This document shows, piece after piece, positions 213-32,340 of a DNA stretch of 33,648 nucleotides. The stretch comes from Modicisalibacter xianhensis (GTDB taxonomy: Bacteria; Pseudomonadota; Gammaproteobacteria; Pseudomonadales; Halomonadaceae), in NCBI RefSeq assembly GCF_900113605.1, contig NZ_FOPY01000022.1, positions 1 to 33,648 on the forward strand, given 5' to 3'. Positions within the stretch are counted from its first letter, which is position 1. Each line of letters begins with the position of its first letter. A program made the translations under genes and the position numbers. A model generated the notes under the pieces. The model worked only from the letters and a program-made list of their open reading frames with translations. It ran no database searches and was not told where the DNA came from.

Positions 213-1289
213 ATGCGAACCTACGACTGTGTCTGCGGGAATCGGCTGTTCTTCGACAACAGCCAGTGCCTGAATTGTGAGCGTGAAGTAGGCTGGTGCC
301 CGGCCTGTGCGCGGATCGCTGCGCTGGAACCGCTGGCCGAGGGCGGGTATCGCTGTACCTACGAGGATTGCGGGGCGGCATTGCTCAAGTGTCTCAATTA
401 TAGTGAGCATCAGGTCTGCAATCGTATGGTCGCGATGCAAGGCGATATCGCCGAGGGCGAAGGCGAGGCAAGCGCTCTGTGCGATTGCTGTCGATACAAC
501 GACGTGGTTCCCGACCTTTCCATCCCGGGACATCTCGAACGCTGGGCCGCGCTGGAAGCCGCCAAGCGTCGCCTGTTCTACACTCTCGACCTGCTCGGCC
601 TGCCGCATGGCACGCCCGAGGAGAGCGTTGAGCCGCCGTTGTCCTTTTCGTTCATGGCCGATGCCATGCCCGATGCCGGCCTATGGCGAACCACGGCCGG
701 CACGGACAAGGTCTATACCGGACATGCCGAGGGGCACATCACCATCAACGTCAAGGAAGCCGACGACGTCGAGCGTGAGCGACTGCGCATCGACATGAAC
801 GAGTCGCATCGCACCTTGATCGGACATTTTCGTCACGAGATCGGCCATTACTACTGGGACGTCCTGGTCAAGGGGCGTGACGAGGAGAACAGCCGTCGAC
901 TATTTGGCGACCATGACAACCCGACCTACAGCGAGGCCCTGGAGCGTTACTACGATCAGGGACCACCCGAGAACTGGCAGGAACGTTTCGTCTCGGCATA
1001 TGCCACCATGCATCCGTGGGAAGATTTTGCCGAGACCTTTGCCTTCTATCTGGATATCGTGTCGGTGATCGATACGGCACGCAACCTGGGCCTGTCGCGT
1101 GTCGAACATGATGACCGCCTGTCTTCGGTTCTGAGCGCTTTCCAGCAGGTTGGCCTCGCCGTCAACGAACTCAACCGCGACATGGGCCTGACGGATCTGG
1201 TACCCGAAGTGATCACCCCGGCGATTCGCGACAAGCTCGAATACATTCACGGAGTGATCGGCGCATGCACGAAAGGGAAACACCGATAG
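213..1289 (+). CDS. Zinc-ribbon metallopeptidase (COG4307/DUF2248-like)
   Basis: The 358-aa protein begins with a cysteine-rich zinc-ribbon region (CVCGN, then CLNC, CPAC and further Cys pairs within roughly the first 100 residues). It then has a helical middle and an HEIGH zinc-peptidase motif at residues 208-212. This fits the predicted zinc-binding metallopeptidase family COG4307. No signal peptide is seen, so it is probably cytosolic. ATG 213 is chosen because AAAGGAG ends 6 bases before it; an in-frame GTG at 195 has no such site. It converges on the alpha-E gene with only 5 bp between the stops and sits beside the amidoligase cluster. I infer, without direct proof, that it may process products of that system. 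Confidence 0.85.
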   Translation: MRTYDCVCGNRLFFDNSQCLNCEREVGWCPACARIAALEPLAEGGYRCTYEDCGAALLKCLNYSEHQVCNRMVAMQGDIAEGEGEASALCDCCRYNDVVPDLSIPGHLERWAALEAAKRRLFYTLDLLGLPHGTPEESVEPPLSFSFMADAMPDAGLWRTTAGTDKVYTGHAEGHITINVKEADDVERERLRIDMNESHRTLIGHFRHEIGHYYWDVLVKGRDEENSRRLFGDHDNPTYSEALERYYDQGPPENWQERFVSAYATMHPWEDFAETFAFYLDIVSVIDTARNLGLSRVEHDDRLSSVLSAFQQVGLAVNELNRDMGLTDLVPEVITPAIRDKLEYIHGVIGACTKGKHR

Positions 1290-1294
1290 CGTGG

Positions 1295-2281
1295 CTAATC
1301 CTCTTCGTCTTCCTCGGCTTCGGCTGTCACGGCGCGTGGCACATCGTCGAATCGCGCAAAATAGGTCGTGGCGATGGCGTCGTGAATGTTGTTGAAGCCG
1401 ATTTGCAACTCGTCGATGAAGGCATGCAGGTCGTCCGGTGAGCGGGCCAGGGACTGCACATCGGCTTCCAACACCTCGGCCCTGACCAGGGCGACCGCCG
1501 CCAGGGCGCGATCATGGCGGGGCAGGGACTGCAGTTCCCAGGAGAGCGACTCCAGACTGCGGGCCACGGCACGCGGGAAGTGCCGGTCCTGAAGCAAGAA
1601 ACGCAACACGTCCGGGCCACGTACTCGCAGGCGCACCTGCTGACGATACATCTGGTAGCCGGTCAACGATTTGAGCACGCTCATCCACTGCAGGTTCTCG
1701 AAGGGGCGCAGTTCCTCGGGATCCTTGGGCAGCAGGTTGCCTGAACGCACGTCGATGATGCGCGTGGTCATGTCGGCACGTTCCAGGTTGCGACCCAGTT
1801 CGATGAAACAGCGGGTCGCCGTGTAGCTCAGCGTGCCCTCGATGAGCCCCGTGACGGTTTGGCAGCCGCGAATGACACGCTTGAGAAAGCTATCGCGGCG
1901 TCGTGGCGACAGGCCGGCGTCGCTCTGCTCGCGAACGTCGAGATAGAGTTCGTTGATCTGCTCCCAGATTTCCCGCGAGACCACGTCACGTGTCGTGCGC
2001 AGGTTCTCTCTGGCGCTGGCCAGCGATGACAGTATCGACCCCGGATTGTCGCGTTCGACACACAGGAAATGGAGTACGTTCTTCTCGTTGCGGCGATCGT
2101 AGCGTTCGTCGAAGCGCGATTCACAGCCCATGATGTCGATCAGCGTCGACCAGCCCAGCGCCGTGTGGTGGGGCAGGTCGAGCAACAGATGGCTGTTGAC
2201 GCTGACCAGGCGGGCAGTGTCTTCGGCCCGTTCGATGTAACGCGCCGTCCAGTAGAGGTTTTCGGCAACTCGCGACAGCAT
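1295..2281 (-). CDS. Alpha-E domain protein (COG2307/DUF403)
   Basis: The 328-aa, largely helical protein starts MLSRVAENLYWTARYIERAE, the hallmark N-terminus of the alpha-E family. Family members are found beside or fused to circularly permuted ATP-grasp ligases and transglutaminase-like proteins, and are thought to act with them; no reaction has been assigned to the domain itself. The last residues are a run of acidic amino acids. The start is 5 bases downstream of the stop of the ATP-grasp gene, so the two are almost certainly co-transcribed and translationally coupled. The first residues match the same domain fused in the 7454-10000 gene (SRVADNLFWLGRYGERLD), which confirms the start. Confidence 0.9.
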   Translation of the reverse strand: MLSRVAENLYWTARYIERAEDTARLVSVNSHLLLDLPHHTALGWSTLIDIMGCESRFDERYDRRNEKNVLHFLCVERDNPGSILSSLASARENLRTTRDVVSREIWEQINELYLDVREQSDAGLSPRRRDSFLKRVIRGCQTVTGLIEGTLSYTATRCFIELGRNLERADMTTRIIDVRSGNLLPKDPEELRPFENLQWMSVLKSLTGYQMYRQQVRLRVRGPDVLRFLLQDRHFPRAVARSLESLSWELQSLPRHDRALAAVALVRAEVLEADVQSLARSPDDLHAFIDELQIGFNNIHDAIATTYFARFDDVPRAVTAEAEEDEED

Positions 2282-2286
2282 GGCGA

Positions 2287-3741
2287 TTACTCCTCGTCGG
2301 TCTCGACGATCCAGGTATCCTTGCTTCCGCCGCCCTGCGATGAGTTCACCACCAGCGAATCCTTGACCAGGGCCACGCGGGTCAGCCCGCCCATGGTGAC
2401 CTGGATGTCGGGGCCGGAAAGGATGAACGGACGCAGGTCGACATGGCGGGCTTCCGTCGTGCCGTCGCACAAGGTCGGAGCGGTGGAAAGGGCCAGGGTC
2501 GGTTGGGCCATGTAATTGCGCGGGTTGGCCTTGATGCGTTCGGCGAATTCCTCGCGCTCGGCGGCCGAGGCGCGTGGGCCGATCAGCATGCCATAACCGC
2601 CGGACTCATTGGCCGGCTTGACCACCAGCTCGTCGAGATGATCAAGCACATAGTTGCGATCATCCTCGAACATGCACAGGTAGCTTGGCACGTTGGGTAA
2701 CAACGGTTCCTGATCGAGATAGTACTGGATGATCCTGGGCACGAAGGCGTAGACCACCTTGTCGTCGGCCACGCCGGCCCCTGGTGCGTTGGCCAGGGCC
2801 ACCTTGCCATTGCGCCAGGCTCGCATCAGGCCGGGCACGCCAAGCATTGAGTCGGGGTTGAAGGCCTCCGGATCGAGAAACATGTCGTCGATTCGGCGGT
2901 AGATCACGTCGACCCGGGTCAAGCCTTCGACGGTGCGCATGTAGACGATGTCGTGGTCATCCACCACCAGGTCCGAGCCCTGGACCAGTTCCACCCCCAT
3001 CTGCTGGGCAAGGTAGGCATGCTCGTAATAGGCCGAGTTGTAGATGCCAGGGGTGAGCACGACGATCTGCGGCTCGTCGTAGGGGCGGGGGGACAGGCTG
3101 GCCAGCATGTCGTAGAGCTGCGAGGTGTAATCGTCGACCGGCAGGATGCGGCCCGTGGCGAACACCTCGGGAAGCACGCGCTTGGTGACATTGCGGTTCT
3201 CGAGCATGTACGAAACGCCGGACGGCACACGCAAATTGTCCTCGAGCACATACAGGGTGCCGTCGCGGTCGCGCACCAGGTCGGAGCCACAGATGTGCGC
3301 CCAGACCCGGTGGGGCGGGTCGATGCCCCGACATTGCGGACGGAAGTTGACCGACTGTTCCAGCACTTCAGCGGGGAGTACGCCATCCTTGACGATGCGC
3401 TGGTCGTGGTAGAGGTCGTCGATGAACAGGTTGAGCGCCTCGACTCGCTGCTTGAGCCCGGCTTCGGTACGCCGCCATTCATTGGCGGGAATGATCCTGG
3501 GCACGATATCGAAGGGCCAGGCACGATCGATCATGCTGCCTTCCGAGTAGACCGTGAACGTGATACCCATGGTCTGGATGGCGATTTCCGCCGCTGCCTT
3601 GCGTTCGGCCAGTTCCTGGGGACTGAAGCTGGCCAGCACATCGCACAGCTCGATAGCGGCCTGGCGGGGGCGGCCGGGGGCTTCCAGCAATTCGTCGTAG
3701 AACCCCTTGCTGTCATAGCTGTTCCAATCGATCAGACTCAT
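2287..3741 (-). CDS. Circularly permuted ATP-grasp amidoligase (COG2308, DUF404/DUF407)
   Basis: The 484-aa protein is a predicted carboxylate-amine (peptide-bond-forming) ligase of unknown substrate. Visible motifs are LEDNLRVPSG, with E167, D168 and N169 as likely metal/nucleotide ligands; VVKPANESGGYG, with K375 and the following glycine loop as the ATP-binding segment; VDLRPF; and a C-terminal SSQGGGSKDTW. All of these look intact. ATG 3741 is preferred over a GTG two codons upstream because GAGG lies 8 bases before the ATG but only 2 before the GTG. It heads a two-gene operon with the alpha-E gene and is divergent from the transglutaminase-DUF2126 gene. The family association with transglutaminases and alpha-E proteins is established; the product is not. 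Confidence 0.9.
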   Translation of the reverse strand: MSLIDWNSYDSKGFYDELLEAPGRPRQAAIELCDVLASFSPQELAERKAAAEIAIQTMGITFTVYSEGSMIDRAWPFDIVPRIIPANEWRRTEAGLKQRVEALNLFIDDLYHDQRIVKDGVLPAEVLEQSVNFRPQCRGIDPPHRVWAHICGSDLVRDRDGTLYVLEDNLRVPSGVSYMLENRNVTKRVLPEVFATGRILPVDDYTSQLYDMLASLSPRPYDEPQIVVLTPGIYNSAYYEHAYLAQQMGVELVQGSDLVVDDHDIVYMRTVEGLTRVDVIYRRIDDMFLDPEAFNPDSMLGVPGLMRAWRNGKVALANAPGAGVADDKVVYAFVPRIIQYYLDQEPLLPNVPSYLCMFEDDRNYVLDHLDELVVKPANESGGYGMLIGPRASAAEREEFAERIKANPRNYMAQPTLALSTAPTLCDGTTEARHVDLRPFILSGPDIQVTMGGLTRVALVKDSLVVNSSQGGGSKDTWIVETDEE

Positions 3742-3937
3742 CGGCACTACCTCGCCCAGAGCGGTAACGGCGACCGCGTTTCTGCAAAGTTGCTGATATT
3801 GTCGGTATGTAAACTAGGCTATACCAGAATTGTCACGCCCGACAGGCTGCTGCGTTGAAACCGACGTTGTGTTGATTTTCGGCCAACTTGCTAGTGTGAC
3901 AAACGCCGTCCTGCCGGCATGAGCCGTGGAGTCCTTC
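3742..3937. promoter_or_regulatory. Divergent intergenic region of the amidoligase cluster
   Basis: These 196 bp separate two divergently transcribed operons, so both must start here or nearby. The centre (about 3790-3890) is more AT-rich than the flanking genes. I could not identify a convincing -35/-10 pair on either strand, nor a clear operator palindrome. Confidence 0.5.
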
Positions 3938-6900
3938 ATGACCATTCGCGTTGCCCTGCATCACCGCACCCGATACCGTTTCGACCGCCCGGTCCAGCTC
4001 TCGCCGCACCTGATCCGCCTGAGGCCGGCACCGCACTGTCGTACGCCCATCGAGGCCTACTCCCTCGACATTGGGGGCGAGCCGCATTTCCTCAACTGGC
4101 AACAGGACCCGTTCGGCAACTTCATTGCACGCGCTGTCTTTCCCGAGAAACTCCGTGAGCTGTCCGTCGATGTGGAAGTCGTCGCACCCATGACGGTGAT
4201 CAATCCCTTCGATTTCTTTCTCGAAGAGTATGCCGACGCCTTTCCTTTCACTTACCCCGAGTCGCTGCGCAAGGAGCTGGCGCCGTATCTCGAAGTGCGC
4301 GAGAAGGGGTCGCGCCTGACCGAATGGCTTGCCCAGGTGTCGCGTGAGCCGCAAGGCACTGTGAACTTCCTTGTGGCGCTTAACCAGCGCCTGCAGAGAG
4401 ATATCAGTTATCTGGTGCGCCTGGAGCCAGGTGTCCAGTCCTGCGAGGAGACGTTGGGGAAATCCAGCGGCTCGTGCCGTGACAGCGCCTGGTTGCTGGT
4501 ACAGATCCTGCGCCATCTTGGCTTGGCTTCGCGTTTCGTGTCCGGGTACCTGATCCAGTTGGCTGCCGACGTCAAGGCACTGGACGGCCCGTCCGGCACC
4601 GAGGTGGATTTTACCGACCTCCACGCCTGGACCGAGGTGTTCATTCCCGGGGCCGGTTGGGTCGGGCTCGACCCGACGTCGGGGCTACTGGCCGGCGAAG
4701 GACACATCCCGCTTGCGGCGACACCGGAACCCTCGAGCGCAGCACCGATCAGCGGCTTCACCGACGAGTGCAAGGTCGAGTTCGACTTCTCCATGCAGGT
4801 GGAGCGTATCCATGAAGACCCGCGCGTCACCAAGCCCTACAGCGAGGAGCAGTGGGCTCGCATCATGGCGCTGGGTGAGCGGGTCGATGCGCGCCTGAAC
4901 GACAGCGACGTACGCCTGACCCTGGGCGGTGAGCCGACGTTCGTGTCGATCGATGACATGGACGGCGACGAATGGAATACCGCAGCCATGGGGCCGACCA
5001 AGCGCGGCCTCGCCGGCGATCTGGTCAAGCGGCTGCGACGTCGCTTCGCCGAAGGGGGGCTGCTGCATACCCACCAGGGCAAGTGGTATCCGGGCGAGTC
5101 GCTGCCGCGTTGGGCGTTGGCCTGCTACTGGCGCAAGGATGGTGTGCCGCTATGGCGTGACGAGGCTCTGCTGGCCGACGATCGCCAGGCTGGTCACCAT
5201 GGTGTCGCCGAGGCGCGGCGCTTCGCCGAGGTGTTGTGCCGGCGGCTGGGCGTTTCCGGCGAGCGCCTGATTCCGGGCTACGAGGATGCCTATTACTACC
5301 TGTGGCGCGAGCGGACGCTGCCGGTCAACATCGACCCGCGCCGTTTCGATCTCGAAGACGACGAGGAGCGCCGTCGCCTGGCGCAGCTATTGGAGCGCGG
5401 CCTGGGCGACATCACCGGCTTCGCGCTACCGCTGCGTCACTCGCTTCGCGAGGCGCATGCCTGGGAGAGTGGGGCGTGGCCCCTGCGTCGAGATCATCTC
5501 TATCTGATTCCCGGCGATTCACCGATGGGCCTGCGCCTGCCGCTGACGGCACTGCCATGGAGCGAGTGCCCGGACACGCCTCATCCGCAGTCGCTGTTCG
5601 AATTCCGTCAAGGGCTCGGCGACGTGCATGGCGAAGTGATGCGTCGTCATAGCCAGTTCCATCGCCCGGCCCAGAATGAAGCGCATGGGCGTCATCGCCA
5701 TGTTGGGCCCGCTCAAGACTGGCAGGAACAGCCCGCGCTTGATGACGACCAGCGGGTCATCCATACCAGCTTGTGTGTCGAACCGCGCGAGGGGCGCATG
5801 CATGTCTTCCTGCCGCCGCTGACCAGGCTCGAACATTATCTGGACCTGGTGGCCAGCGTCGAGGACACCGCCGCCGAGTTGGGCATGCCGGTGGTGGTCG
5901 AAGGCTATCCGCCGCCTGCCGATCCGCGCCTGCAGAAATTCATGATCACGCCCGACCCGGGGGTGATCGAGGTCAACATCATGCCGGCAGGGGACTGGCC
6001 ATCGCTGGTCGAGAACACCACGATTCTCTACGAGGAAGCTCGCCAGGCCCGCCTGGGCACCGAGAAGTTCATGCTCGATGGCCGGCATACCGGCACCGGC
6101 GGCGGCAACCATGTGACGCTGGGTGGCGCGACGCCGGTCGATTCGCCGTTCCTGCGCCGCCCCGACCTGCTGGGTAGCCTGCTGACCTACTGGCAGCATC
6201 ACCCGAGCCTGTCGTACCTGTTTGCGGGGCTGTTCCTGGGGCCGACCAGCCAGGCGCCAAGAGTCGACGAGGCGCGCCACGAGTCGCTCTACGAACTTGA
6301 GATTGCCTTGTCGCAGATGCCGGAGGGCGAGGTTCCACAGCCTTGGCTGGTGGACCGCCTGCTGCGCCACTTGCTGACCGATATTACCGGCAACACCCAC
6401 CGGGCCGAATTCTGTATCGACAAGCTCTATTCGCCGGACACCGAAACCGGACGCCTGGGGCTGGTCGAACTGCGCGCCTTCGAAATGCCACCGCATGCGC
6501 GCATGAGTCTGATGCAGATGCTGCTGATTCGTGCGCTGGTGGCGCGTTGCTGGGAACGCCCCTACCGCGGCAAACTGGTGCGCTGGGGTACGGCACTCCA
6601 TGACCGCTGGCTGTTGCCGCACTTTCTCTGGGCCGACCTGGATGATGTGCTGGATGACCTGCGCAATGCTGGCCTTGACTTCGACACGCAATGGTTTGCG
6701 CCGTTTCTGGAGTTCCGCTTTCCAGTCCATGGGCGTGTGACCTACCGCAATGTCGAGTTGGAACTGCGCCAGGCTATCGAACCGTGGCATGTGCTGGGCG
6801 AGGAGAGTGCCGGCGGTGGCACGGCGCGCTATGTCGACTCGTCGGTGGAACGCCTCCAGGTCAAGGTGACCGGCATGAGCGGTGAGCGTTACGTGGTGAC

Positions 6901-7261
6901 CTGCAATGGGCGGCGCGTCCCGCTGCATCCGACCGGGCGCAGCGGCGAAGCGGTGGCCGGCGTACGCTATCGGGCCTGGCAGCCGCCATCGGCGCTTCAC
7001 CCGCAAATACCGGTGCACGCACCGCTGGTGTTCGATATCATCGACACTTGGAATCAGCGCTCGGTCGGCGGGTGCACCTACCATGTGTCGCACCCGGCGG
7101 GGCGCAACTACGACACCTTTCCGGTCAATGCCAACGAAGCGGAAGCTCGTCGCCTGGCGCGTTTCTGGGCGCATGGCCATACTCAAGGGAAGGTGCCGGC
7201 CATGCCGGAAACCCCGAGCCTGGAGTTGCCGCTGACGCTGGATCTGCGTCGCCCTGCCTGA
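3938..7261 (+). CDS. Transglutaminase-like protease fused to DUF2126 (COG1305 + COG4196)
   Basis: The 1107-aa protein has an N-terminal bacterial transglutaminase beta-domain (about 1-85) and a transglutaminase core with a C180-H229-D245 triad (GSCRDSAW, DLHAWTE, GLDPTSG). A long DUF2126 region runs from about residue 300 to the end. That region carries GVIEVNIMP, GTGGGNHVTLGG, HRAEFCIDKLYSP and LVELRAFEMPPH. The order E/N, glycine-rich NHV and R/E recalls glutamine-synthetase-fold ligases, a relationship I recall being proposed for this family but cannot verify here. The ATG at 3938 has GGAG 6 bases upstream; an in-frame GTG at 3926 is less likely. It is the first gene of a three-gene operon with the ATP-grasp/alpha-E fusion and a second transglutaminase. 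No signal peptide is seen. Confidence 0.9.
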   Translation: MTIRVALHHRTRYRFDRPVQLSPHLIRLRPAPHCRTPIEAYSLDIGGEPHFLNWQQDPFGNFIARAVFPEKLRELSVDVEVVAPMTVINPFDFFLEEYADAFPFTYPESLRKELAPYLEVREKGSRLTEWLAQVSREPQGTVNFLVALNQRLQRDISYLVRLEPGVQSCEETLGKSSGSCRDSAWLLVQILRHLGLASRFVSGYLIQLAADVKALDGPSGTEVDFTDLHAWTEVFIPGAGWVGLDPTSGLLAGEGHIPLAATPEPSSAAPISGFTDECKVEFDFSMQVERIHEDPRVTKPYSEEQWARIMALGERVDARLNDSDVRLTLGGEPTFVSIDDMDGDEWNTAAMGPTKRGLAGDLVKRLRRRFAEGGLLHTHQGKWYPGESLPRWALACYWRKDGVPLWRDEALLADDRQAGHHGVAEARRFAEVLCRRLGVSGERLIPGYEDAYYYLWRERTLPVNIDPRRFDLEDDEERRRLAQLLERGLGDITGFALPLRHSLREAHAWESGAWPLRRDHLYLIPGDSPMGLRLPLTALPWSECPDTPHPQSLFEFRQGLGDVHGEVMRRHSQFHRPAQNEAHGRHRHVGPAQDWQEQPALDDDQRVIHTSLCVEPREGRMHVFLPPLTRLEHYLDLVASVEDTAAELGMPVVVEGYPPPADPRLQKFMITPDPGVIEVNIMPAGDWPSLVENTTILYEEARQARLGTEKFMLDGRHTGTGGGNHVTLGGATPVDSPFLRRPDLLGSLLTYWQHHPSLSYLFAGLFLGPTSQAPRVDEARHESLYELEIALSQMPEGEVPQPWLVDRLLRHLLTDITGNTHRAEFCIDKLYSPDTETGRLGLVELRAFEMPPHARMSLMQMLLIRALVARCWERPYRGKLVRWGTALHDRWLLPHFLWADLDDVLDDLRNAGLDFDTQWFAPFLEFRFPVHGRVTYRNVELELRQAIEPWHVLGEESAGGGTARYVDSSVERLQVKVTGMSGERYVVTCNGRRVPLHPTGRSGEAVAGVRYRAWQPPSALHPQIPVHAPLVFDIIDTWNQRSVGGCTYHVSHPAGRNYDTFPVNANEAEARRLARFWAHGHTQGKVPAMPETPSLELPLTLDLRRPA

Positions 7262-7453
7262 GCCGATTCGACGAGATAGCCGGACCAGTATCGGATAATC
7301 GATGCCTAGCTCATCGCAACCGGCATGTATCGTTGTTGCATAGTGCTGTGATGGCCGGAAACGGACAGGGAAGGTCGCTTCATCCCGGCCTGTTTGGGCG
7401 TTCAAACGGGTAATTCTTCGATGCTGGGTGAAGTTCAAGACAGCGGAGCCGAG
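7262..7453. other. Intergenic spacer inside the amidoligase operon
   Basis: About 190 bp lie between the DUF2126 gene and the fusion gene, less if the fusion starts at the alternative ATG 7421. I see no ORF with a ribosome site, no strong terminator hairpin and no clear promoter. Confidence 0.4.
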
Positions 7454-10000
7454 ATGGCAGCACCGCTTCGACACGGCGATGATGCCGTAGCCAACCTGCT
7501 CGCGGGTTATGTCCCCGCCGGTGAGTTTGACGTACTGTTCTCCGCCCAAGGGCAACTGCGCGAACACTGGCGCGGCGTGCTTGCCGAGCTGGCGGCGCTG
7601 GGTGAGCAGGGGTTGGCCGAGCGCGCCGACGAGCTGCAGCGCCTGCTTTACGAGAACGGTGTGACCTTCAATGTGCACGACGACACGCGGGGGCGTCTGC
7701 GCACCTGGCGTGTCGATCCGTTGCCGTTGGCAATCTCGTCTACCGAGTGGCAGGAACTCGAGCTTGGCCTGATCCAGCGCAGCCGATTGCTGGACGCCTT
7801 GCTCACCGACCTTTACGGCCCGCGCCGCCTGATCGACGAAGGTTACCTTCCTCCCGAACTCGTTTTCGGACATCCGGGGTTCCAGTTGGCCTGCGATCAG
7901 AGCCTGGCGGCTCAGGGGCCCGGCCTGGTATTTCACGGCATCGATCTGGTGCGCGATTCGCAAGGGCAGTGGCGGGTCTTCGCGGATCGTCTGCAGGCTC
8001 CCTCGGGCGCCGGCTATGCCCTCGAGAATCGCATCATCCTGGCGCGAGCCATGCCAACCCTGTACCGGGAAGCGCCATTGCGTCGCCTGGCCAGCTTCCT
8101 GGGTACCGAACACCTGGCACTGTCGGCCATGGCCCCGGTCCAGCGTGAACAAGCGAATATCGTCCTGTTGACCCCTGGGCCGGACAGCGACAGCTATTTC
8201 GAGCATGCCTACCTGGCCAATTATCTGAACCTGTCGCTGGTCGAGAGCCTTGACCTCGTGGTACGCGACGGGCGCGTGTGGATGCGGACCTTGGGTGGCC
8301 TGAAGCCGGTGGATGTGATCCTGCGGCGCATGGAAGACGCCTGGTGCGATCCGCTGGAGCTGCGCAGCGACTCGGTCATTGGGGTACCCGGGCTGGTTCA
8401 GGCAGCGCGCAGCGGTAACGTGGCCATGGCCAACCCGCTGGGTGTCGGCGTGCTGGAGCATCCCGGGTTGGCACCCTACCTGCCGACACTCTGTCAACGG
8501 TTGCTTGGCGAGCCGCTTCGCCTGCCATCGCCGGAAAGCTGGTGGTGCGGCGATCCGGTATCGCTGGCGCAGGTCCTGGCGCAATTCGAGCAGTTGACCT
8601 TGCGCACGACCGACCCGGGCACCTTGCCGGTCACAGTATCGGATCTCAACCCTAGGCAGGCCGAGGCCCTGCGCGAAAGCCTCCTGGCGCGGCCCGAGCG
8701 TTATGTCGCTCAGCGGCCGATCGTGTCGGCAACGGTGCCGGTCTACGATGACGAGGCGCACAGGTTCGTTTCGCATCCGTTCAACCTGCGCATGTTCGTC
8801 ACACGCGAAGCGCCGACAAGAGACAGTGACGAATGGGGATTTCAGGCCATGCCCGGCGGGTTGGCCTGGGTGGGCGGCCCGGGCTTGCCATCGCGACGTA
8901 GCGAGGTGGTCAAGGATGTCTGGGTATTGGCAGAAACACCCCAGCCACATATCAGCCAGCTTCGCCAAGCCACCGGACCGATCGTGGTTACCCGCGATGG
9001 CGTCGACCTGCCCAGTCGGGTGGCCGACAACCTGTTCTGGCTGGGGCGCTACGGGGAGCGTCTGGACGTTCGTTCGCGATTGCTGCGCGAGGGGCTTCTG
9101 CGCCTGCTTGAACAGGAGCAGGACGAATACGCCGATAGTTCGCTGGTCGACCTGTTCGAGGCATTGGAGATCGAGATGCCCGAGGTGGCCCCGGGCGAGC
9201 GTCGTTTCCTGGCGCTGCGGTCTGCACTATTGACCCTGTTCAACGACGAGACAATCGGCAGCCTGCCGGGGTGCTTCCAGCAGATGCTCCGTAATTGCCG
9301 CGCCGTACGCGATCATCTCGGGGACGATTCCTGGCGTGTCATCAACCACCTCCGCCGCCATACTGCAGCCTTGCCCAAGGTGCCCTCGGCAAGTGCCGGC
9401 CGGCGGGCCTGCGAGGAGAACATTACCCAGTTGGCCGCGTTCTTCGGCTTGTGCAATGAAACCATGCCGCATCACTATGGCTGGCGTTTCATGGATATCG
9501 GACGCTTCATCGAGCGCGCACTCGGCACGCTCGAACTGTTGCGTCGCGTGTTGACTGACGCGCACGAGCCGGGTATCCCGCTATGGGAAGTGGTGCTGGC
9601 CACGACCGATAACTTTACCGCCTATCGCCGGCGCTATCGCAGCGAACTGCATCCCACCGCGATTCTCGACTTGCTGCTGTTCGACGAAGGCAATCCACGC
9701 TCGGTGGGTTACATGCTCAAACGGCTGGGACGGCAGATCGAACGGTTACCGCAGCCGGACGGCACGCCTTACCGTTCTCGCGAGCAGCGGTTGATCCTGC
9801 AGGCGACGAGTACATTGCAGCTGGCGGACATCGCCTTGCTGTCCGACGTACATGCCTCGCAACGGGCAAGGGAGGCGTTGTCGGCGCTGTTCGCCGATCT
9901 GCTCGAGCCGCTCGAACAGCTTTCCGATGCCATCAGTCATACGCATTTCAGTCATGCCGAGACGCCCCGGCAATTGCTCAGGATGCAGGTGCAGCCGTGA
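7454..10000 (+). CDS. Fusion of a degenerate circularly permuted ATP-grasp domain with an alpha-E domain (COG2308-COG2307)
   Basis: Residues about 1-500 align by eye along their whole length with the separate ATP-grasp protein at 2287-3741. Residues about 520-857 are an alpha-E domain beginning SRVADNLFWLGRYGERLD. The nucleotide-binding features are lost: the partner's VLEDNLRVPSG is VFADRLQAPSG here, and its VVKPANESGGYG is TLRTTDPGTLPV. The lysine and the glycine loop are therefore gone, while the arginine of the LRPF/LRMF motif remains. I infer a structural or regulatory pseudo-ligase. ATG 7454 has GGAG 5 bases upstream; ATG 7421, 11 codons earlier, is possible but has a poor site. The stop overlaps the next start by four bases (GTGA), showing translational coupling. 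Confidence 0.88.
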   Translation: MAAPLRHGDDAVANLLAGYVPAGEFDVLFSAQGQLREHWRGVLAELAALGEQGLAERADELQRLLYENGVTFNVHDDTRGRLRTWRVDPLPLAISSTEWQELELGLIQRSRLLDALLTDLYGPRRLIDEGYLPPELVFGHPGFQLACDQSLAAQGPGLVFHGIDLVRDSQGQWRVFADRLQAPSGAGYALENRIILARAMPTLYREAPLRRLASFLGTEHLALSAMAPVQREQANIVLLTPGPDSDSYFEHAYLANYLNLSLVESLDLVVRDGRVWMRTLGGLKPVDVILRRMEDAWCDPLELRSDSVIGVPGLVQAARSGNVAMANPLGVGVLEHPGLAPYLPTLCQRLLGEPLRLPSPESWWCGDPVSLAQVLAQFEQLTLRTTDPGTLPVTVSDLNPRQAEALRESLLARPERYVAQRPIVSATVPVYDDEAHRFVSHPFNLRMFVTREAPTRDSDEWGFQAMPGGLAWVGGPGLPSRRSEVVKDVWVLAETPQPHISQLRQATGPIVVTRDGVDLPSRVADNLFWLGRYGERLDVRSRLLREGLLRLLEQEQDEYADSSLVDLFEALEIEMPEVAPGERRFLALRSALLTLFNDETIGSLPGCFQQMLRNCRAVRDHLGDDSWRVINHLRRHTAALPKVPSASAGRRACEENITQLAAFFGLCNETMPHHYGWRFMDIGRFIERALGTLELLRRVLTDAHEPGIPLWEVVLATTDNFTAYRRRYRSELHPTAILDLLLFDEGNPRSVGYMLKRLGRQIERLPQPDGTPYRSREQRLILQATSTLQLADIALLSDVHASQRAREALSALFADLLEPLEQLSDAISHTHFSHAETPRQLLRMQVQP

Positions 10001-10881
10001 TCTATCAGCTCTCCCACACGACGCGCTACGAATACAGTGCCCCGGTGGCACTTTGCCACAACGAGGCACGTATGCTGCCACGCGAGCTGCCCTGGCAACG
10101 CTGCGAACCGTCCCGGGTTCAGGTTGTGCCAGCGCCGGCTGTCCAGAGCGAGCGCACCGATTTCTTCGGCAACCGCGTCATGTATTTCGCCATCCAGGAC
10201 ATTCATCAGTCTCTGGAAGTCACGGTCAGGACGCGCCTGCAGACGTTTGCGCGGCCAGTATTGCCCGAGGCATGGAAAGACGACTGGCAGACCTGCCGCG
10301 ATACCCTGGCCGGGGCTGCCGAACGCAGTTGCCTGCATGCCCGCTTGTTTCGTCTCGATTCACCGTTCATTCGCAGCGACACCCGCCTGGCCGACTACGC
10401 CAGGCCAAGCTTCGTGACGGGACGTCCGCTACTCGAGGCGGTTCAGGACCTCAATCGGCGTATCTTCGAAGAATTCACCTACGATCCCAGCTTTACCACT
10501 CTGGCGACTCCGTTGATGCATGTGCTGGAAGAACGGCGTGGGGTTTGCCAAGACTTCGCCCATCTGGCCATTGGTTGCCTGCGTTCCATGGGGCTGGCGG
10601 CGCGTTATGTCAGTGGTTATCTGGAAACCCTGCCGCCACCCGGGCAGCCCAAGCTGATCGGGGCCGATGCCTCGCATGCCTGGCTGGCGGTCTTTCTGCC
10701 GGGGTGGGGGTGGCTGGAGCTCGACCCGACCAATGGCAGCCTGCCGGGGGAGCAGCATATCGTCGTTGCCTGGGGGCGGGATTACGGCGATGTACCGCCT
10801 TTGACCGGCGTGATGAGCGGCGGCGGGGAGCATAGCCTGGACGTGGCGGTGGACGTGATGCCGGTCACCGAGGCCGCTTGA
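9997..10881 (+). CDS. Transglutaminase-like cysteine protease (COG1305)
   Basis: The 294-aa protein has an N-terminal bacterial transglutaminase domain (MIYQLSHTTRYEYSAPVALC) and a core with the triad C184 (RGVCQDFAHL), H227 (ASHAWLAV) and D243 (LELDPTNG). Bacterial members mostly act as peptidases or amide-forming enzymes. It starts with GTG inside the stop of the fusion gene, so its production is coupled to it. This is the second transglutaminase-fold enzyme of the cluster, and it lacks the DUF2126 extension of the first. No signal peptide or membrane span is visible, consistent with a cytosolic role alongside the ligases. Confidence 0.92.
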   Translation: MIYQLSHTTRYEYSAPVALCHNEARMLPRELPWQRCEPSRVQVVPAPAVQSERTDFFGNRVMYFAIQDIHQSLEVTVRTRLQTFARPVLPEAWKDDWQTCRDTLAGAAERSCLHARLFRLDSPFIRSDTRLADYARPSFVTGRPLLEAVQDLNRRIFEEFTYDPSFTTLATPLMHVLEERRGVCQDFAHLAIGCLRSMGLAARYVSGYLETLPPPGQPKLIGADASHAWLAVFLPGWGWLELDPTNGSLPGEQHIVVAWGRDYGDVPPLTGVMSGGGEHSLDVAVDVMPVTEAA

Positions 10882-14535: not shown

Positions 14536-15711
14536 CTAGCGCACCAAGGTTTGGGCGGCTTCATCGAGCCCCTGAACGCTCAAGGGATACATGCGCTCGC
14601 CGACCAAGTCTCTTATCAGACGGATGGACTGCGTATAGTCCCAGTAGCGTTCGGGGGCCGGGTTGAGCCAGGCCAGGTGAGGAAACTTGCCGACCAGGCG
14701 CTGCAGCCAGGCGGCGCCCGGTTCGTCATTGAAATGCTCGACGCTGCCGCCGGGGTGGGTGATTTCGTAAGGCGACATGGTGGCATCGCCGACCACGATC
14801 ACCTTGTAGTCGCTACCATAGGTCCGTAACAACTCCAGGGTGGGAAACCGCTCGTGGCGGCGCGAATTATCGCGCCAGACCCCTTCATACAGGCAATTAT
14901 GGAAGTAGAAAGGCTCGAGGTGCTTGAACTCGCTGCGGCAGGCAGCGAACAATGCTTCACAGACCCTCACGTGATCGTCCATCGAGCCACCGACATCGAA
15001 CAGCAGCAGTACTTTCACGGCATTGCGCCGTTCCGGGCGGGTACGCACATTGAGAAGGCCACCATCACGAGCCGTCGCCTCGATGGTGCCATCAATATCG
15101 AATTCTTCCCCGGCACCGGTGCGGGCAAAGCGACGCAGGCGGCGCAAGGCCATCTTCATGTTGCGTGGGCCCAGGGCCAGCGCGTCGTCATAGTCGCGAA
15201 ACTGGCGTTCCTCCCAGACCTTGACCGCCCGGCGATGGCGCGATTCGGCTGGCCCGATGCGTATCCCTTCGGGGTTGTAGCCGTAGGCCCCGAAGGGGCT
15301 GGTACCTCCGGTGCCGATCCACTTGTTGCCGCCGGCGTGGCGCTCCCGCTGTTCTTCGAGGCGCTGCTTGAAGGTCTCGATGAGCGCCTCCAGTCCTCCC
15401 AGCGACTCGATCCTTGCCTTGTCTTCTTCTGACAGCGAGCGCTCGAATTCGCGGCGCAGCCACGCCTCCGGAATCAGTGCCTCGAGTGCAGCATCGAGAG
15501 TGTCGACGCCTTCATGCCAAGCCGAGAAGGCGCGGTCGAAGCGATCGTAGTAACGCTCGTCCTTGACCAGCACCAGCCGGGCCAGACGATAGAATTCCTC
15601 CATGTCGGCAAATACGACGCCGCTTTCCACCGCGGCGTGCAGGTCGAGCCATTCACGCAGCGATACCGGGACACCCGCCTGCCTGAGCCTGTCGAAGAGA
15701 CCGATGAACAT
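14536..15711 (-). CDS. VWA-domain protein (CoxE/COG3825-like), partner of a MoxR ATPase
   Basis: The 391-aa protein has a charged N-terminal region and a C-terminal von Willebrand A-like domain (about 230-385). Its metal-site motif DVGGSMD matches DxGxS. HPGG and NDEP stretches follow late in the domain, with no transmembrane segment. MoxR-VWA pairs act as chaperone-like systems that assemble or activate metalloenzymes or large complexes; the client here is unknown. Its start lies 3 bases after the stop of the MoxR gene on the same strand, so the two form one operon. No candidate client enzyme adjoins the pair. Confidence 0.88.
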   Translation of the reverse strand: MFIGLFDRLRQAGVPVSLREWLDLHAAVESGVVFADMEEFYRLARLVLVKDERYYDRFDRAFSAWHEGVDTLDAALEALIPEAWLRREFERSLSEEDKARIESLGGLEALIETFKQRLEEQRERHAGGNKWIGTGGTSPFGAYGYNPEGIRIGPAESRHRRAVKVWEERQFRDYDDALALGPRNMKMALRRLRRFARTGAGEEFDIDGTIEATARDGGLLNVRTRPERRNAVKVLLLFDVGGSMDDHVRVCEALFAACRSEFKHLEPFYFHNCLYEGVWRDNSRRHERFPTLELLRTYGSDYKVIVVGDATMSPYEITHPGGSVEHFNDEPGAAWLQRLVGKFPHLAWLNPAPERYWDYTQSIRLIRDLVGERMYPLSVQGLDEAAQTLVR

Positions 15712-15714
15712 GGC

Positions 15715-16566
15715 TCAGCGCCTCCGCCCGTCACGCCGAGCCATGAAGTCGAGGCGCTCGAGCAGGGACGTGTCCTGCTCGTTCTTGATCAGCGCGCCGG
15801 CCAGCGGCGGCAGCGAACGAGCCGGGTCGCGCTCGTGCAAGGCTTGCTGGGCCAACTGGTCAGCCATGAGCAGTTTCAGCCAGTCGACGAGTTCGGAAGT
15901 CGAAGGCTTTTTCTTCAGGCCGGGGGCAGCACGCAAGTCGAAAAATACTTCCAAAGCCTGTTCGACAAGGCGCCTGTCGATATCGGGAAAGTGCACATCG
16001 ACGATGGCCTGCATGGTGTCGCGGTCGGGAAACTCGATGTAATGGAAGAAGCAGCGCCGTAAAAAGGCATCAGGCAACTCCTTCTCATTGTTGGAGGTGA
16101 TGACGATGATTGGCCGGTGGCGGGCTCGCACCGTCTGGTCGGTCTCGTAGACGTAAAATTCCATGCGGTCGAGTTCCTGCAACAGGTCGTTGGGAAACTC
16201 GATATCCGCCTTGTCGATCTCATCAATCAGTAGAACGACGCGCCGTTCTGCCTCGAAGGCCTCCCAGAGCTTGCCGGGCTTGATGTAGTTGCGCACCTCG
16301 TGCACACCCTCGATACCCAGTTGGGAGTCACGCAGGCGGCTGACGGCATCGTATTCATAGAGGCCCTGATGCGCCTTGGTCGTGGACTTGATGTGCCAGG
16401 TAACGAGCCGGGTATCCAGCGAGCGCGCCAGTTCTTCGGCCAGCAGGGTCTTGCCGGTGCCGGGTTCGCCCTTGATCAGTAGCGGTCTCTGCAGGGTGAC
16501 CGCAGCGTCCACGGCCAGGCGCAACGCGTCCGTGGCCACATAGGTGGAGGTTCCCTCGAAAGCCAT
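15715..16566 (-). CDS. MoxR-family AAA+ ATPase
   Basis: The 283-aa protein contains Walker A GEPGTGKT (about 33-40), Walker B VVLLIDEID (about 110-118), sensor 1 ITSNNEKELPDAFLRRC, and an arginine-rich C-terminus. The length and motif order fit the compact MoxR ATPases that work with a VWA partner, which is the next gene. GAGGAAGG lies just before the ATG. The pair probably remodels or loads a metal cofactor into an unidentified target protein, an inference from the family only. Confidence 0.92.
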   Translation of the reverse strand: MAFEGTSTYVATDALRLAVDAAVTLQRPLLIKGEPGTGKTLLAEELARSLDTRLVTWHIKSTTKAHQGLYEYDAVSRLRDSQLGIEGVHEVRNYIKPGKLWEAFEAERRVVLLIDEIDKADIEFPNDLLQELDRMEFYVYETDQTVRARHRPIIVITSNNEKELPDAFLRRCFFHYIEFPDRDTMQAIVDVHFPDIDRRLVEQALEVFFDLRAAPGLKKKPSTSELVDWLKLLMADQLAQQALHERDPARSLPPLAGALIKNEQDTSLLERLDFMARRDGRRR

Positions 16567-28322: not shown

Positions 28323-30524
28323 ATGGAAATCAAGGTCAACTATCTCGAGAACCTGCGCCAGGAAGCCAGGTTCGACGACTTTACCGTCATCACCGATCAG
28401 CCGATCCGCTACAAGGGCGATGGCTCCGCGCCGGGGCCGTTCGACTACTTCCTGGCCTCGTCGGCGCTCTGTGCAGCCTACTTCGTGCGGGTGTACTGCA
28501 ATGCGCGGGATATTCCTACCGAGAATATCCGCCTGTCGCAGAACAACATCGTCGACCCGGAAAACCGCTACAACCAGATCTTCCGTATCCAGGTCGAGTT
28601 GCCGAATGACCTTTCCGACAAGGACCGCCAGGGCATCCTGCGCTCCATCGAGCGCTGCTCGGTCAAGCGGGTGATTCAGAACAACCCCGAGTTCCAGATC
28701 GAGGTGGTCGATAACATCGACGAAGACGCCCAGGCATTGCTGATGGGTGGCACTGTCGAAGGCGAGAACACCTGGATCGAAGGTAAGGACCTGCCGCTGG
28801 AGCAGACCATTGCCAACATGACCGGCATCCTCGAGGATCTCGGCATGAAGATCGAGATCGCCTCGTGGCGCAATATCGTGCCGCACGTCTGGTCGCTGCA
28901 CATTCGCGACGCCGCCTCGCCGATGTGCTTCACCAACGGCAAGGGCGCCACCAAGGAAGCTGCGCTGTGCTCGGCGCTGGGCGAGTTCATCGAGCGTCTC
29001 TCCTGCAACTTCTTCTATAACGATCAGTACTTCGGCGAGGAGATCGCGGGCAGTGCGTTCGTTCATTACCCGGACGAGGAATGGTTCCAGCCAGGGCCGA
29101 ACGACGCGTTGCCGGACGGCATCCTGGACGATCACTGCCGGGCCATCTACGACCCCGACGGCGAGCTGCGCGGCTCGCACCTGATCGACACCAACTCCGG
29201 CCGGGCGGATCGCGGTATCGTCTCGCTGCCCTTTGTGCGCCAATCTGACGGCGAGACGGTCTATTTCCCGTCCAATCTGATCGAGAACCTCTACCTCAGT
29301 AACGGCATGAGCGCCGGCAACACGGTGGCCGAGGCGCAGGTGCAGTGCCTGTCGGAGATCTTCGAGCGCGCAGTGAAGAAGCAGATCATCGAGGAAGAAA
29401 TCGTGCTGCCCGACGTGCCCGACGAGGTACTGGCGAAATACCCCGGCATTGTCGAGGGCATCGAGGCGCTGGAGGCCCAGGGCTTCCCGGTGCTGGTCAA
29501 GGACGCCTCGCTCGGCGGTCAGTTCCCGGTGGCCTGCGTCACGCTGATGAATCCGCGTACCGGCGGCGTGTTTGCTTCCTTCGGCGCACATCCCAGCCTG
29601 CAGGTAGCGCTGGAGCGAAGCCTGACCGAGCTATTGCAGGGGCGCAGCTTCGAAGGACTGGATGATCTGCCGCCGCCCACCTTCAACTCCCAGGCGGTGG
29701 CTGAGCCGAACAACTTCGTCGAGCACTTCATCGATTCGTCGGGGGTGATTTCCTGGCGCTTCTTCAGTTCGCGCTCCGACGTCGAGTTCTGCGAGTGGGA
29801 TTTCTCGGGTACCAATGACGAAGAAGCGGAGCGCCTGTTCGGGATTCTCTCGGAAATGGGCCTGGAAGCCTACATGGCCGTTCACGAGGACCTGGGCGCG
29901 CCGGTGTGCCGCATCCTGGTGCCGGGCTATTCCGAGGTGTATCCCGTGGAAGACCTGGTCTGGGACAACACCAACATGGCACTGGCCTTCCGCGAGGACA
30001 TCCTCAACCTGCATTCGCTGGACGACGCGCAACTGGCCGAGCTGCTCGAACGCCTGGAAGAGAGCGAACTCGACGAGCAGATGAAAATCGTCACGCTGAT
30101 CGGCATCGAGTTCGACGACAACTCCGTCTGGTCCGAGCTGACCATTCAGGAATTGAAGCTGCTGATCCATCTGGCGCTACAGCAGCATGAAGAAGCACTG
30201 GATCACGTCGCGATGTTCCTGCAGTTTAACGACAACACCGTCGCGCGTGGTCTGTTCTACCAGGCGATGCAGGCGGTGCTGGAAATCACCCTGGACGACG
30301 AGCTGGCGCTCGAGGATTACCTGTATAACCTGCGGCGCATGTTCGGTGACGAGACCATGGACGCCGTGGTCGGCTCGGTCACCAGCGAGGTACGCTTCCA
30401 TGGCCTGACGCCCACCAGCTTGAAGCTGGAAGGCATCGACCGACACCAGCGCCTGATCGAAAGCTACAAGAAGCTGCACGCGGCGCGCGCTGCCAAGGCG
30501 GGAGCGGCCGTAACCTCAGCCTGA
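28323..30524 (+). CDS. ycaO: OsmC-YcaO fusion protein
   Basis: The 733-aa protein has an N-terminal OsmC-like domain (about 1-150, with APGPFDYFLASSALCAAYF). A YcaO domain follows (about 190-560) with KGATKEAALCSALGEFIERLS and ERSLTELLQGR, the helices whose acidic and arginine residues bind ATP-Mg. A helical, TPR-like C-terminal region covers about 600-720. YcaO proteins activate backbone amides with ATP. The E. coli protein, which lacks the OsmC part in many annotations, has been linked to RimO-dependent methylthiolation of ribosomal protein S12. This is a stand-alone gene without peptide-precursor genes nearby, so a housekeeping role is likelier than RiPP synthesis. No in-frame upstream start is available, and ATG 28323 lacks a recognisable Shine-Dalgarno. 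A strong terminator follows. Confidence 0.93.
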   Translation: MEIKVNYLENLRQEARFDDFTVITDQPIRYKGDGSAPGPFDYFLASSALCAAYFVRVYCNARDIPTENIRLSQNNIVDPENRYNQIFRIQVELPNDLSDKDRQGILRSIERCSVKRVIQNNPEFQIEVVDNIDEDAQALLMGGTVEGENTWIEGKDLPLEQTIANMTGILEDLGMKIEIASWRNIVPHVWSLHIRDAASPMCFTNGKGATKEAALCSALGEFIERLSCNFFYNDQYFGEEIAGSAFVHYPDEEWFQPGPNDALPDGILDDHCRAIYDPDGELRGSHLIDTNSGRADRGIVSLPFVRQSDGETVYFPSNLIENLYLSNGMSAGNTVAEAQVQCLSEIFERAVKKQIIEEEIVLPDVPDEVLAKYPGIVEGIEALEAQGFPVLVKDASLGGQFPVACVTLMNPRTGGVFASFGAHPSLQVALERSLTELLQGRSFEGLDDLPPPTFNSQAVAEPNNFVEHFIDSSGVISWRFFSSRSDVEFCEWDFSGTNDEEAERLFGILSEMGLEAYMAVHEDLGAPVCRILVPGYSEVYPVEDLVWDNTNMALAFREDILNLHSLDDAQLAELLERLEESELDEQMKIVTLIGIEFDDNSVWSELTIQELKLLIHLALQQHEEALDHVAMFLQFNDNTVARGLFYQAMQAVLEITLDDELALEDYLYNLRRMFGDETMDAVVGSVTSEVRFHGLTPTSLKLEGIDRHQRLIESYKKLHAARAAKAGAAVTSA

Positions 30525-31837: not shown

Positions 31838-32092
31838 TCAGTAGTGATAATGAAGCTGAGCGATAAGCAGTGCATCATCCGTGACCTTGTAGACCATTCG
31901 GTCTTCTTCGTTGATTCGCCGGGACCAGTAACCCGCCAGGCTATGCTTGAGAGGTTCAGGCTTACCGACGCCTTCGAATGGCTCACGCTGGGTTTCCTTG
32001 ATTAACTTATTGATCCGGGTAAGCGTCTTTATGTCGGTCTTTTGCCAGTACAGATAGTCTTCCCATGCATTCTTGGAGAAGAGCAGCTTCAT
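31838..32092 (-). CDS. yoeB: YoeB-family ribosome-dependent mRNA endonuclease toxin
   Basis: The 84-aa protein is full length for YoeB and close to the E. coli protein throughout. It shows WEDYLYWQ, PFEGVGKPEPLKH, YWSRRI and the C-terminal HYHY. The catalytic residues E46, R65, H83 and the terminal Y84 are all present, so the toxin should be active: it cleaves mRNA in the ribosomal A site unless bound by YefM. ATG 32092 overlaps the antitoxin stop by four bases (ATGA), the standard coupled arrangement with antitoxin first. The module is AT-richer than its neighbours, consistent with acquisition. Confidence 0.96.
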   Translation of the reverse strand: MKLLFSKNAWEDYLYWQKTDIKTLTRINKLIKETQREPFEGVGKPEPLKHSLAGYWSRRINEEDRMVYKVTDDALLIAQLHYHY

Positions 32093-32340
32093 TCAAGGAG
32101 TTCCTTCTCCTGGCCATTGCCTTGCTCCAGTTCGGCGACAGACTCCAATAGCCGACGGGCATTCTTCGGTGCACGAAGCAGGTACGCAGCCTCTTGCAAT
32201 GCTTCGTAGTCCTCAAGAGAGATCATGACCACCGACTGCGCTTTGCTGCGGGTAATAATGATGGGTGAATGGTCTTCACAGACCTGTTCCATGGTTTTGG
32301 CTAGATGAGTTCGCGCTGCGGTGTAGCTGATGGCGTCCAT
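32089..32340 (-). CDS. yefM: YefM/Phd-family antitoxin
   Basis: The 83-aa protein matches YefM: an N-terminal DNA-binding part (MDAISYTAARTHLAKTMEQV, then ITRSKAQSVVMISLEDYEAL) and a C-terminal tail (APKNARRLLESVAELEQGN) that wraps the toxin. It neutralises YoeB and, with it, represses the operon. The operator-promoter lies 25-60 bases upstream. It is first in the operon and overlaps the toxin start. Confidence 0.95.
   Translation of the reverse strand: MDAISYTAARTHLAKTMEQVCEDHSPIIITRSKAQSVVMISLEDYEALQEAAYLLRAPKNARRLLESVAELEQGNGQEKELLE

Follow-up and report, generated by a model that had tools for sequence, protein, structure and literature searches.

A known bacterial ATP-grasp, alpha-E and transglutaminase system, complete but without Anbu, in Modicisalibacter xianhensis

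Anbu, alpha-E, ATP-grasp and transglutaminase proteins make up a predicted bacterial system for peptide synthesis and modification (Iyer et al., 2009, as related in excerpts of PMC5666114, PMC6376114 and PMC3597751). Anbu operons, for which an excerpt of PMC6376114 gives a four-gene order, include PP_2685-2688 of P. putida (excerpts of PMC7801951 and PMC8050072) and that of Y. bercovieri (PMC6376114). According to the same excerpt, the Y. bercovieri relative of the ATP-grasp protein studied here frees phosphate from ATP, glutamate or glutamine did not stimulate it, and no specific interaction was found among the operon proteins with Anbu as bait (PMC6376114). The P. putida genes respond to nitrogen limitation, are placed under NtrB/NtrC (excerpts of PMC7801951, PMC3325844 and PMC8050072) and are induced alongside urea transport genes, but in the excerpt of PMC7801951 the value for PP_2685 itself is close to 1-fold in the strain listed first. 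A gene set of B. cenocepacia (I35_5080-83) encoding DUF404/407 and DUF403 together with two proteins resembling transglutaminases, of which one is large, is NtrC- and sigma-54-dependent (excerpt of PMC5491218). Furthermore, marine data associate DUF403/404/407 with urea metabolism domains (excerpt of PMC3597751).

The stretch of DNA analyzed here (the window, 33,648 nucleotides) corresponds to an entire contig, one of the 45 that make up a 4.36-Mb genome, and it starts just before Mx, the first gene of the cluster:

213-1289, plus strand: Mx, a putative zinc metallopeptidase (Peptidase_Mx) with an N-terminal zinc ribbon (Pfam, 294 and 57 bits)
1295-2281, minus strand: AE, a stand-alone alpha-E protein (Pfam Alpha-E, 296 bits)
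2287-3741, minus strand: AG, a stand-alone circularly permuted ATP-grasp, predicted active (CP_ATPgrasp_1/2, Pfam, 563 and 483 bits)
3742-3937, no strand: intergenic region separating AG-AE from the divergently oriented TGD (sigma-54 and sigma-70 motif scans)
3938-7261, plus strand: TGD, Bact_transglu_N, Transglut_core and DUF2126 (DUF2126 part about 4763-7249, 1364 bits)
7424-10000, plus strand: FUS, a fusion of CP_ATPgrasp_1/2 and Alpha-E (Pfam; predicted pseudo-ATP-grasp about 7724-8872, alpha-E about 9008-9949)
9997-10881, plus strand: TG, a second transglutaminase-fold protein, Bact_transglu_N and Transglut_core (Pfam)

All six proteins exceed the curated Pfam cut-offs, which bears out the gene content proposed in a first-pass annotation of the sequence. 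The tight spacing it described also holds: AE and AG are 5 bp apart (2282-2286), and FUS and TG overlap by GTGA at 9997-10000. The FUS start codon is uncertain, with a frame open from 7394. The cluster has the same protein families as the system of Iyer et al. (2009), including a permuted ATP-grasp next to alpha-E across the 5-bp gap, a transglutaminase plus a transglutaminase-DUF2126 fusion, and an ATP-grasp with lost motifs fused to alpha-E (FUS, inactive by prediction). That system has Anbu, whereas the genome studied here has none and carries a Peptidase_Mx gene beside the cluster. In the excerpts cited above, the P. putida and Y. bercovieri operons share their ATP-grasp, alpha-E and transglutaminase-like genes with the window, which differs by having no Anbu and by the additional TGD and FUS. 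The B. cenocepacia set, as described in the PMC5491218 excerpt, is like the window and fits the AG-AE-TG-TGD order of Burkholderia sp. TSV86 (L212), to which it may be equivalent; its NtrC and sigma-54 dependence sets it apart from the window cluster, at which no such site was found. The cluster is a complete, Anbu-free member of an already known bacterial system.

Elsewhere in the window, a MoxR-like AAA ATPase adjoins a VWA_CoxE protein (14536-16566); this AAA gene lies about 5 kb from the cluster and bears on the question of unfoldases in the protein-tagging explanation weighed below. The window also contains a YcaO protein that has OsmC at its N terminus and also a YcaO_C domain (28323-30524), a small gene pair on the minus strand that, judged by eye, may be a YoeB/Phd-type toxin-antitoxin module (31840-32340) and a frame that by eye is TnpB/OrfB-like (IS200/IS605-type) and is broken off at the contig end (32627-33648).

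Of 29 genomes (M. xianhensis and relatives), 9 have alpha-E, including 6 of the 14 from the same genus. AG, AE, TGD, FUS and TG are together in eight of the nine stretches fetched from these genomes; in one of the eight, L024, FUS is interrupted. L029, the remaining stretch, comes from a genome that also carries the full cluster and is an Anbu-type locus apart from it. The break in L024 (relative G003) is an IS66 transposase insertion (5407-6896) in the alpha-E part, and the other cluster genes are still present. With 60 loci from among the 74 other DUF2126-positive genomes of a phylum sample of 249 genomes, the first set comprised 69 DUF2126 loci, mostly 17-19.5 kb long and some ending at contig ends. 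Gene calls in this set missed genes through an overlap rule (e.g., AG in L022 and L024); linkage was therefore counted by tblastn, and the motif counts and first sigma-54 scan used the gene calls. By tblastn, the 69 loci contained FUS (64), a transglutaminase (66), AG (37), AE (36), Mx (15) and Anbu (10). Gene order varied: AE-AG divergent from TGD-FUS-TG; AG-AE-TGD-FUS-TG, all with the same orientation; FUS-TG-TGD-AG-AE; TGD-FUS-TG-AG-AE; AG-AE with FUS and Anbu around TGD; and TGD-Anbu-TG-AG-AE-TG. Three loci (L102, L112 and L113) have Anbu directly after DUF2126 and no FUS.

The second set took the 80 closest from a pool of at least 593 matching stretches; the record titles of these 80 name Pseudomonadota and other phyla, and some are metagenome bins. 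FUS was found in 41 of the 54 that exceed 20 kb, a transglutaminase in 42, AG and AE in 30, Anbu in 11 and Mx in 5. The genes are thus co-located in varying order across families, classes and, in this second sample, phyla, and the single-system view survived the neighborhood comparison that could have refuted it. A small substrate protein, which the first-pass annotation had suggested seeking near the locus, did not emerge: judged by eye, none of the neighbor clusters beside the 69 loci was recognized as one that recurs. Similarly, none of the 25 Pfam families shown for the 88 nearest flanking ORFs occurs in more than 5. At the level of whole genomes, DUF2126 is present in 75 of the 249 and CP_ATPgrasp_2 in 147 (145 over the cut-off). 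All 75 DUF2126 genomes have a stand-alone ATP-grasp (a non-fusion row, by frame length and score), and 72 of the 249 have CP_ATPgrasp_2 without DUF2126. The dependence between DUF2126 and the stand-alone ATP-grasp is one-sided. AG-AE can work alone, because AG lies outside the fetched stretch in 32 of the 69 loci and DUF2126 is missing from 72 of the 147 CP_ATPgrasp_2 genomes.

AG is predicted to be active from its motifs. LEDN is present in 32/32 rows of the first set that cover the motif (L125 and L149, which end at the locus edge, were omitted) and K..GGYG in 34/34; both are present in 39/39 rows of the second set, in which the window and loci whose open frame covers the gene in question were counted. 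The first-set motif counts rest on 34 AG rows (L029 included), where 37 loci have AG, and on 63 true FUS rows, where 64 loci have FUS; the two sets have the window in common, and their genomes may overlap too. AG has a solved relative in 3n6x (E 2.8e-162), and the fold relatives of the ATP-grasp part also include glutathione synthetases, YgiC/YjfC, GspSA and Cp1B. The likeness to GspSA and YgiC/YjfC is one of ATP-grasp fold, at about 10% identity. Furthermore, GspSA joins a ligase and a cysteine amidase in one chain, whereas the window has separate genes and a transglutaminase fold.

The Pfam text for PF04174 reportedly names alpha-E as a frequent fusion partner of inactive ATP-grasps and also describes the fusion of transglutaminase to a circularly permuted COOH-NH2 ligase. 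FUS lacks the E..N motif and glycine-rich loop of AG, which we take to be the metal- and nucleotide-binding residues of ATP-grasp. The motif Asn is absent from all FUS rows (0/63 in the first set and 0/54 in the second), as is GGYG (0/54, second set). The loss of the expected catalytic residues predicts a non-catalytic pseudo-ATP-grasp, and a reading with two working ATP-grasps is not supported. FUS may still bind some ligand, because the nucleotide-binding Lys is kept in 41/54 rows and the first Asp in 48/54 (second set). FUS proteins form one clade (support 1.0) and are under purifying selection, with dN/dS of 0.08-0.17 against three relatives. One candidate, FUS_L126_12203, was not counted as FUS, since it is an AG whose open frame is long and whose motifs are intact.

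The triad of TGD is kept in 49/49 rows, and the expected Cys, His and Asp can be read in the translation of TG, whose solved relatives are 3isr and 6g49. The DUF2126 half of TGD is a putative amidoligase: its model (mean pLDDT of 76 for TGD) has a glutamine-synthetase (GS) fold, for which Foldseek alone gave weak matches (best E 0.056). Residues that are candidates for the GS metal and nucleotide ligands are invariant or almost invariant in the 49 rows. The glutamine synthetase family, GmaS included, is 7-15% identical to DUF2126 and differs from it in that DUF2126 is fused to a transglutaminase domain.

Anbu was absent from the M. xianhensis genome at both E <= 1e-20 and E <= 0.001 (0 matches), extending to the whole genome the absence described for the locus. 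The genome has one proteasome-fold match, which resembles a match present in all 29 genomes and which we interpret as HslV. None of the 14 genomes of the genus had Anbu at E <= 0.001. At E <= 1e-20, Anbu was found in 98 of the 249 genomes; among the 75 DUF2126 genomes, 47 have it, and the other 28 show that its absence is not a special trait of this locus. Nor is the zinc peptidase a core member, given its presence in 15/69 loci and 5/54 long loci. Mx adjoins the cluster in 6/6 loci of the genus, is infrequent in other loci and is a recurring neighbor outside the core. Among the phylum-sample genomes there are 8 others that bear Mx, and 6 of these have Anbu as well. Three more Peptidase_Mx-like matches, 38-40% identical, lie elsewhere in the M. 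xianhensis genome (G000:C23:39116-39901, C28:165141-165932 and C28:254368-254943), the last with an internal stop.

Nitrogen starvation probably switches the system on via sigma-54 in many relatives. A scan with a simple sigma-54 consensus (site, score of at least 10 of 12) found sigma-54-like sites before AG in 16/32 cases of the first set versus 21/416 other ORFs (Fisher p 4e-11) and before TGD in 18/69 (p 4e-7), a count that includes two matches rejected below. The second set gave 25/37 before AG (p 1e-18) and 32/81 before TGD (p 6e-14) versus 34/529 other ORFs; all these p values ignore kinship, and some comparison ORFs are spurious. Shuffled upstream regions had such a site in 2.5% of cases. 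Counts for the other genes were 0/39 for AE, 1/56 for FUS and 11/66 for TG (second set), and 3/14 and 2/6 for Mx (first and second sets). Anbu genes showed no enrichment (0/11 and 1/17), and none was found for NtrC sites in the first set. Sites at promoter distance precede AG, TGD or both in L027, L117, L165 and L171; in L168 neither gene has such a site upstream. The six loci of the genus (the window and L022-L026) have no credible site at promoter distance. Score-10 matches in the window and L026 were rejected as TGD promoters, as they lie about 280 bp upstream, within the AG gene. In the window's intergenic region (3742-3937), no sigma-54-like site reaches a score of 9; a single sigma-70-like match, scoring 9 of 12, lies on the minus strand, where shuffles give 0.1. 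Control by sigma-54 may have been lost in this lineage.

From the calculated gene content, linkage, folds, kept and lost motifs and purifying selection, we infer the reactions, joint substrate, scaffold role and complex formation that follow. We lean toward the cluster being one conserved amide-metabolism system of ligases and amidases with a pseudo-ligase partner. AG, with its glutathione-synthetase/glutathionylspermidine-synthetase fold, would turn a carboxylate into an acyl phosphate and couple it to an amine, and the DUF2126 half of TGD would form a second amide bond, perhaps gamma-glutamyl-like. The N-terminal half of TGD and TG, as cysteine enzymes, would cut or transfer amide bonds of the shared substrate, much as GspSA pairs a cysteine amidase with a ligase. 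FUS and the alpha-E helical domains may hold or regulate the active enzymes or the substrate. The folds agree with this pairing of ligases and amidases (3n6x, GspSA and Cp1B for ATP-grasp; GS for the DUF2126 model), and the synthesis-and-processing cycle suggested in the first-pass annotation may hold. Several results weigh against this reading: the Y. bercovieri findings (no stimulation by glutamate or glutamine, no specific interaction among the operon proteins), the genomes and loci in which AG and DUF2126 occur apart, the binding residues that FUS retains, the lack of enrichment for NtrC sites and of sigma-54-like sites before Anbu, the window's lack of a credible sigma-54 site, and the weak Foldseek matches and moderate pLDDT of the TGD model.

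The same enzymes could serve protein tagging, with the ligases attaching a small tag that cysteine enzymes or Anbu remove or degrade, as for ubiquitin or Pup. Such a role has been proposed for the Anbu operon (excerpt of PMC6376114), and ligases and amide-cleaving folds are linked in the 69-locus survey. However, neither the tag-like protein sought beside those loci nor Anbu in 28 of the 75 DUF2126 genomes was found, making tagging doubtful. The P. putida induction with urea transport genes and the B. cenocepacia NtrC dependence (excerpts cited above), together with the sites before AG and TGD in many relatives, would fit nitrogen scavenging, in which, during starvation, ligases would recapture the ammonia or amines that transglutaminase-fold enzymes free from amides or peptides. 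Yet the six loci of the genus keep the genes under purifying selection with no credible sigma-54 site, and two ATP-consuming ligases seem costly; we regard such recycling as distinctly unlikely.

That AG-AE (of the Anbu kind) and TGD-FUS-TG are two independent operons, neighbors by chance, would agree with the 72 genomes having CP_ATPgrasp_2 without DUF2126 and with nine Pseudomonas loci of the second set that have AG-AE outside the stretch. It is highly improbable given AG in 37/69 loci and 30/54 long loci in several orders, the lack of any DUF2126 genome without a stand-alone AG and sigma-54-like sites at both the AG and TGD promoters. We give equally little credence to a secreted peptide natural-product cluster, suggested by the structural relative Cp1B, an ATP-grasp that forms a pseudodipeptide in a natural-product pathway (excerpt of PMC12568646). 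Against it stand the nearest flanking ORFs, where no family shown exceeds 5 occurrences, the neighbor clusters, among which none was recognized as recurring, and TGD, which is 57-73% identical across the 80 closest of at least 593 loci, with record titles from several phyla.

Within the favored amide-metabolism reading, a more specific and speculative proposal is that FUS is a pseudo-ligase subunit that evolved once and presents substrate to, or gates, AG and DUF2126. The cluster would then encode a two-ligase, two-amidase machine that adds and removes an amide-linked, nitrogen-rich conjugate in nitrogen starvation, from whose sigma-54 control the M. xianhensis lineage would have been freed. 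The family is widespread, as the at least 593 matching stretches and the several phyla among the titles of the 80 closest indicate. The whole set is treated here as one unit, with a conserved predicted pseudo-ligase and, in many relatives, sigma-54-like sites ahead of both its operons.
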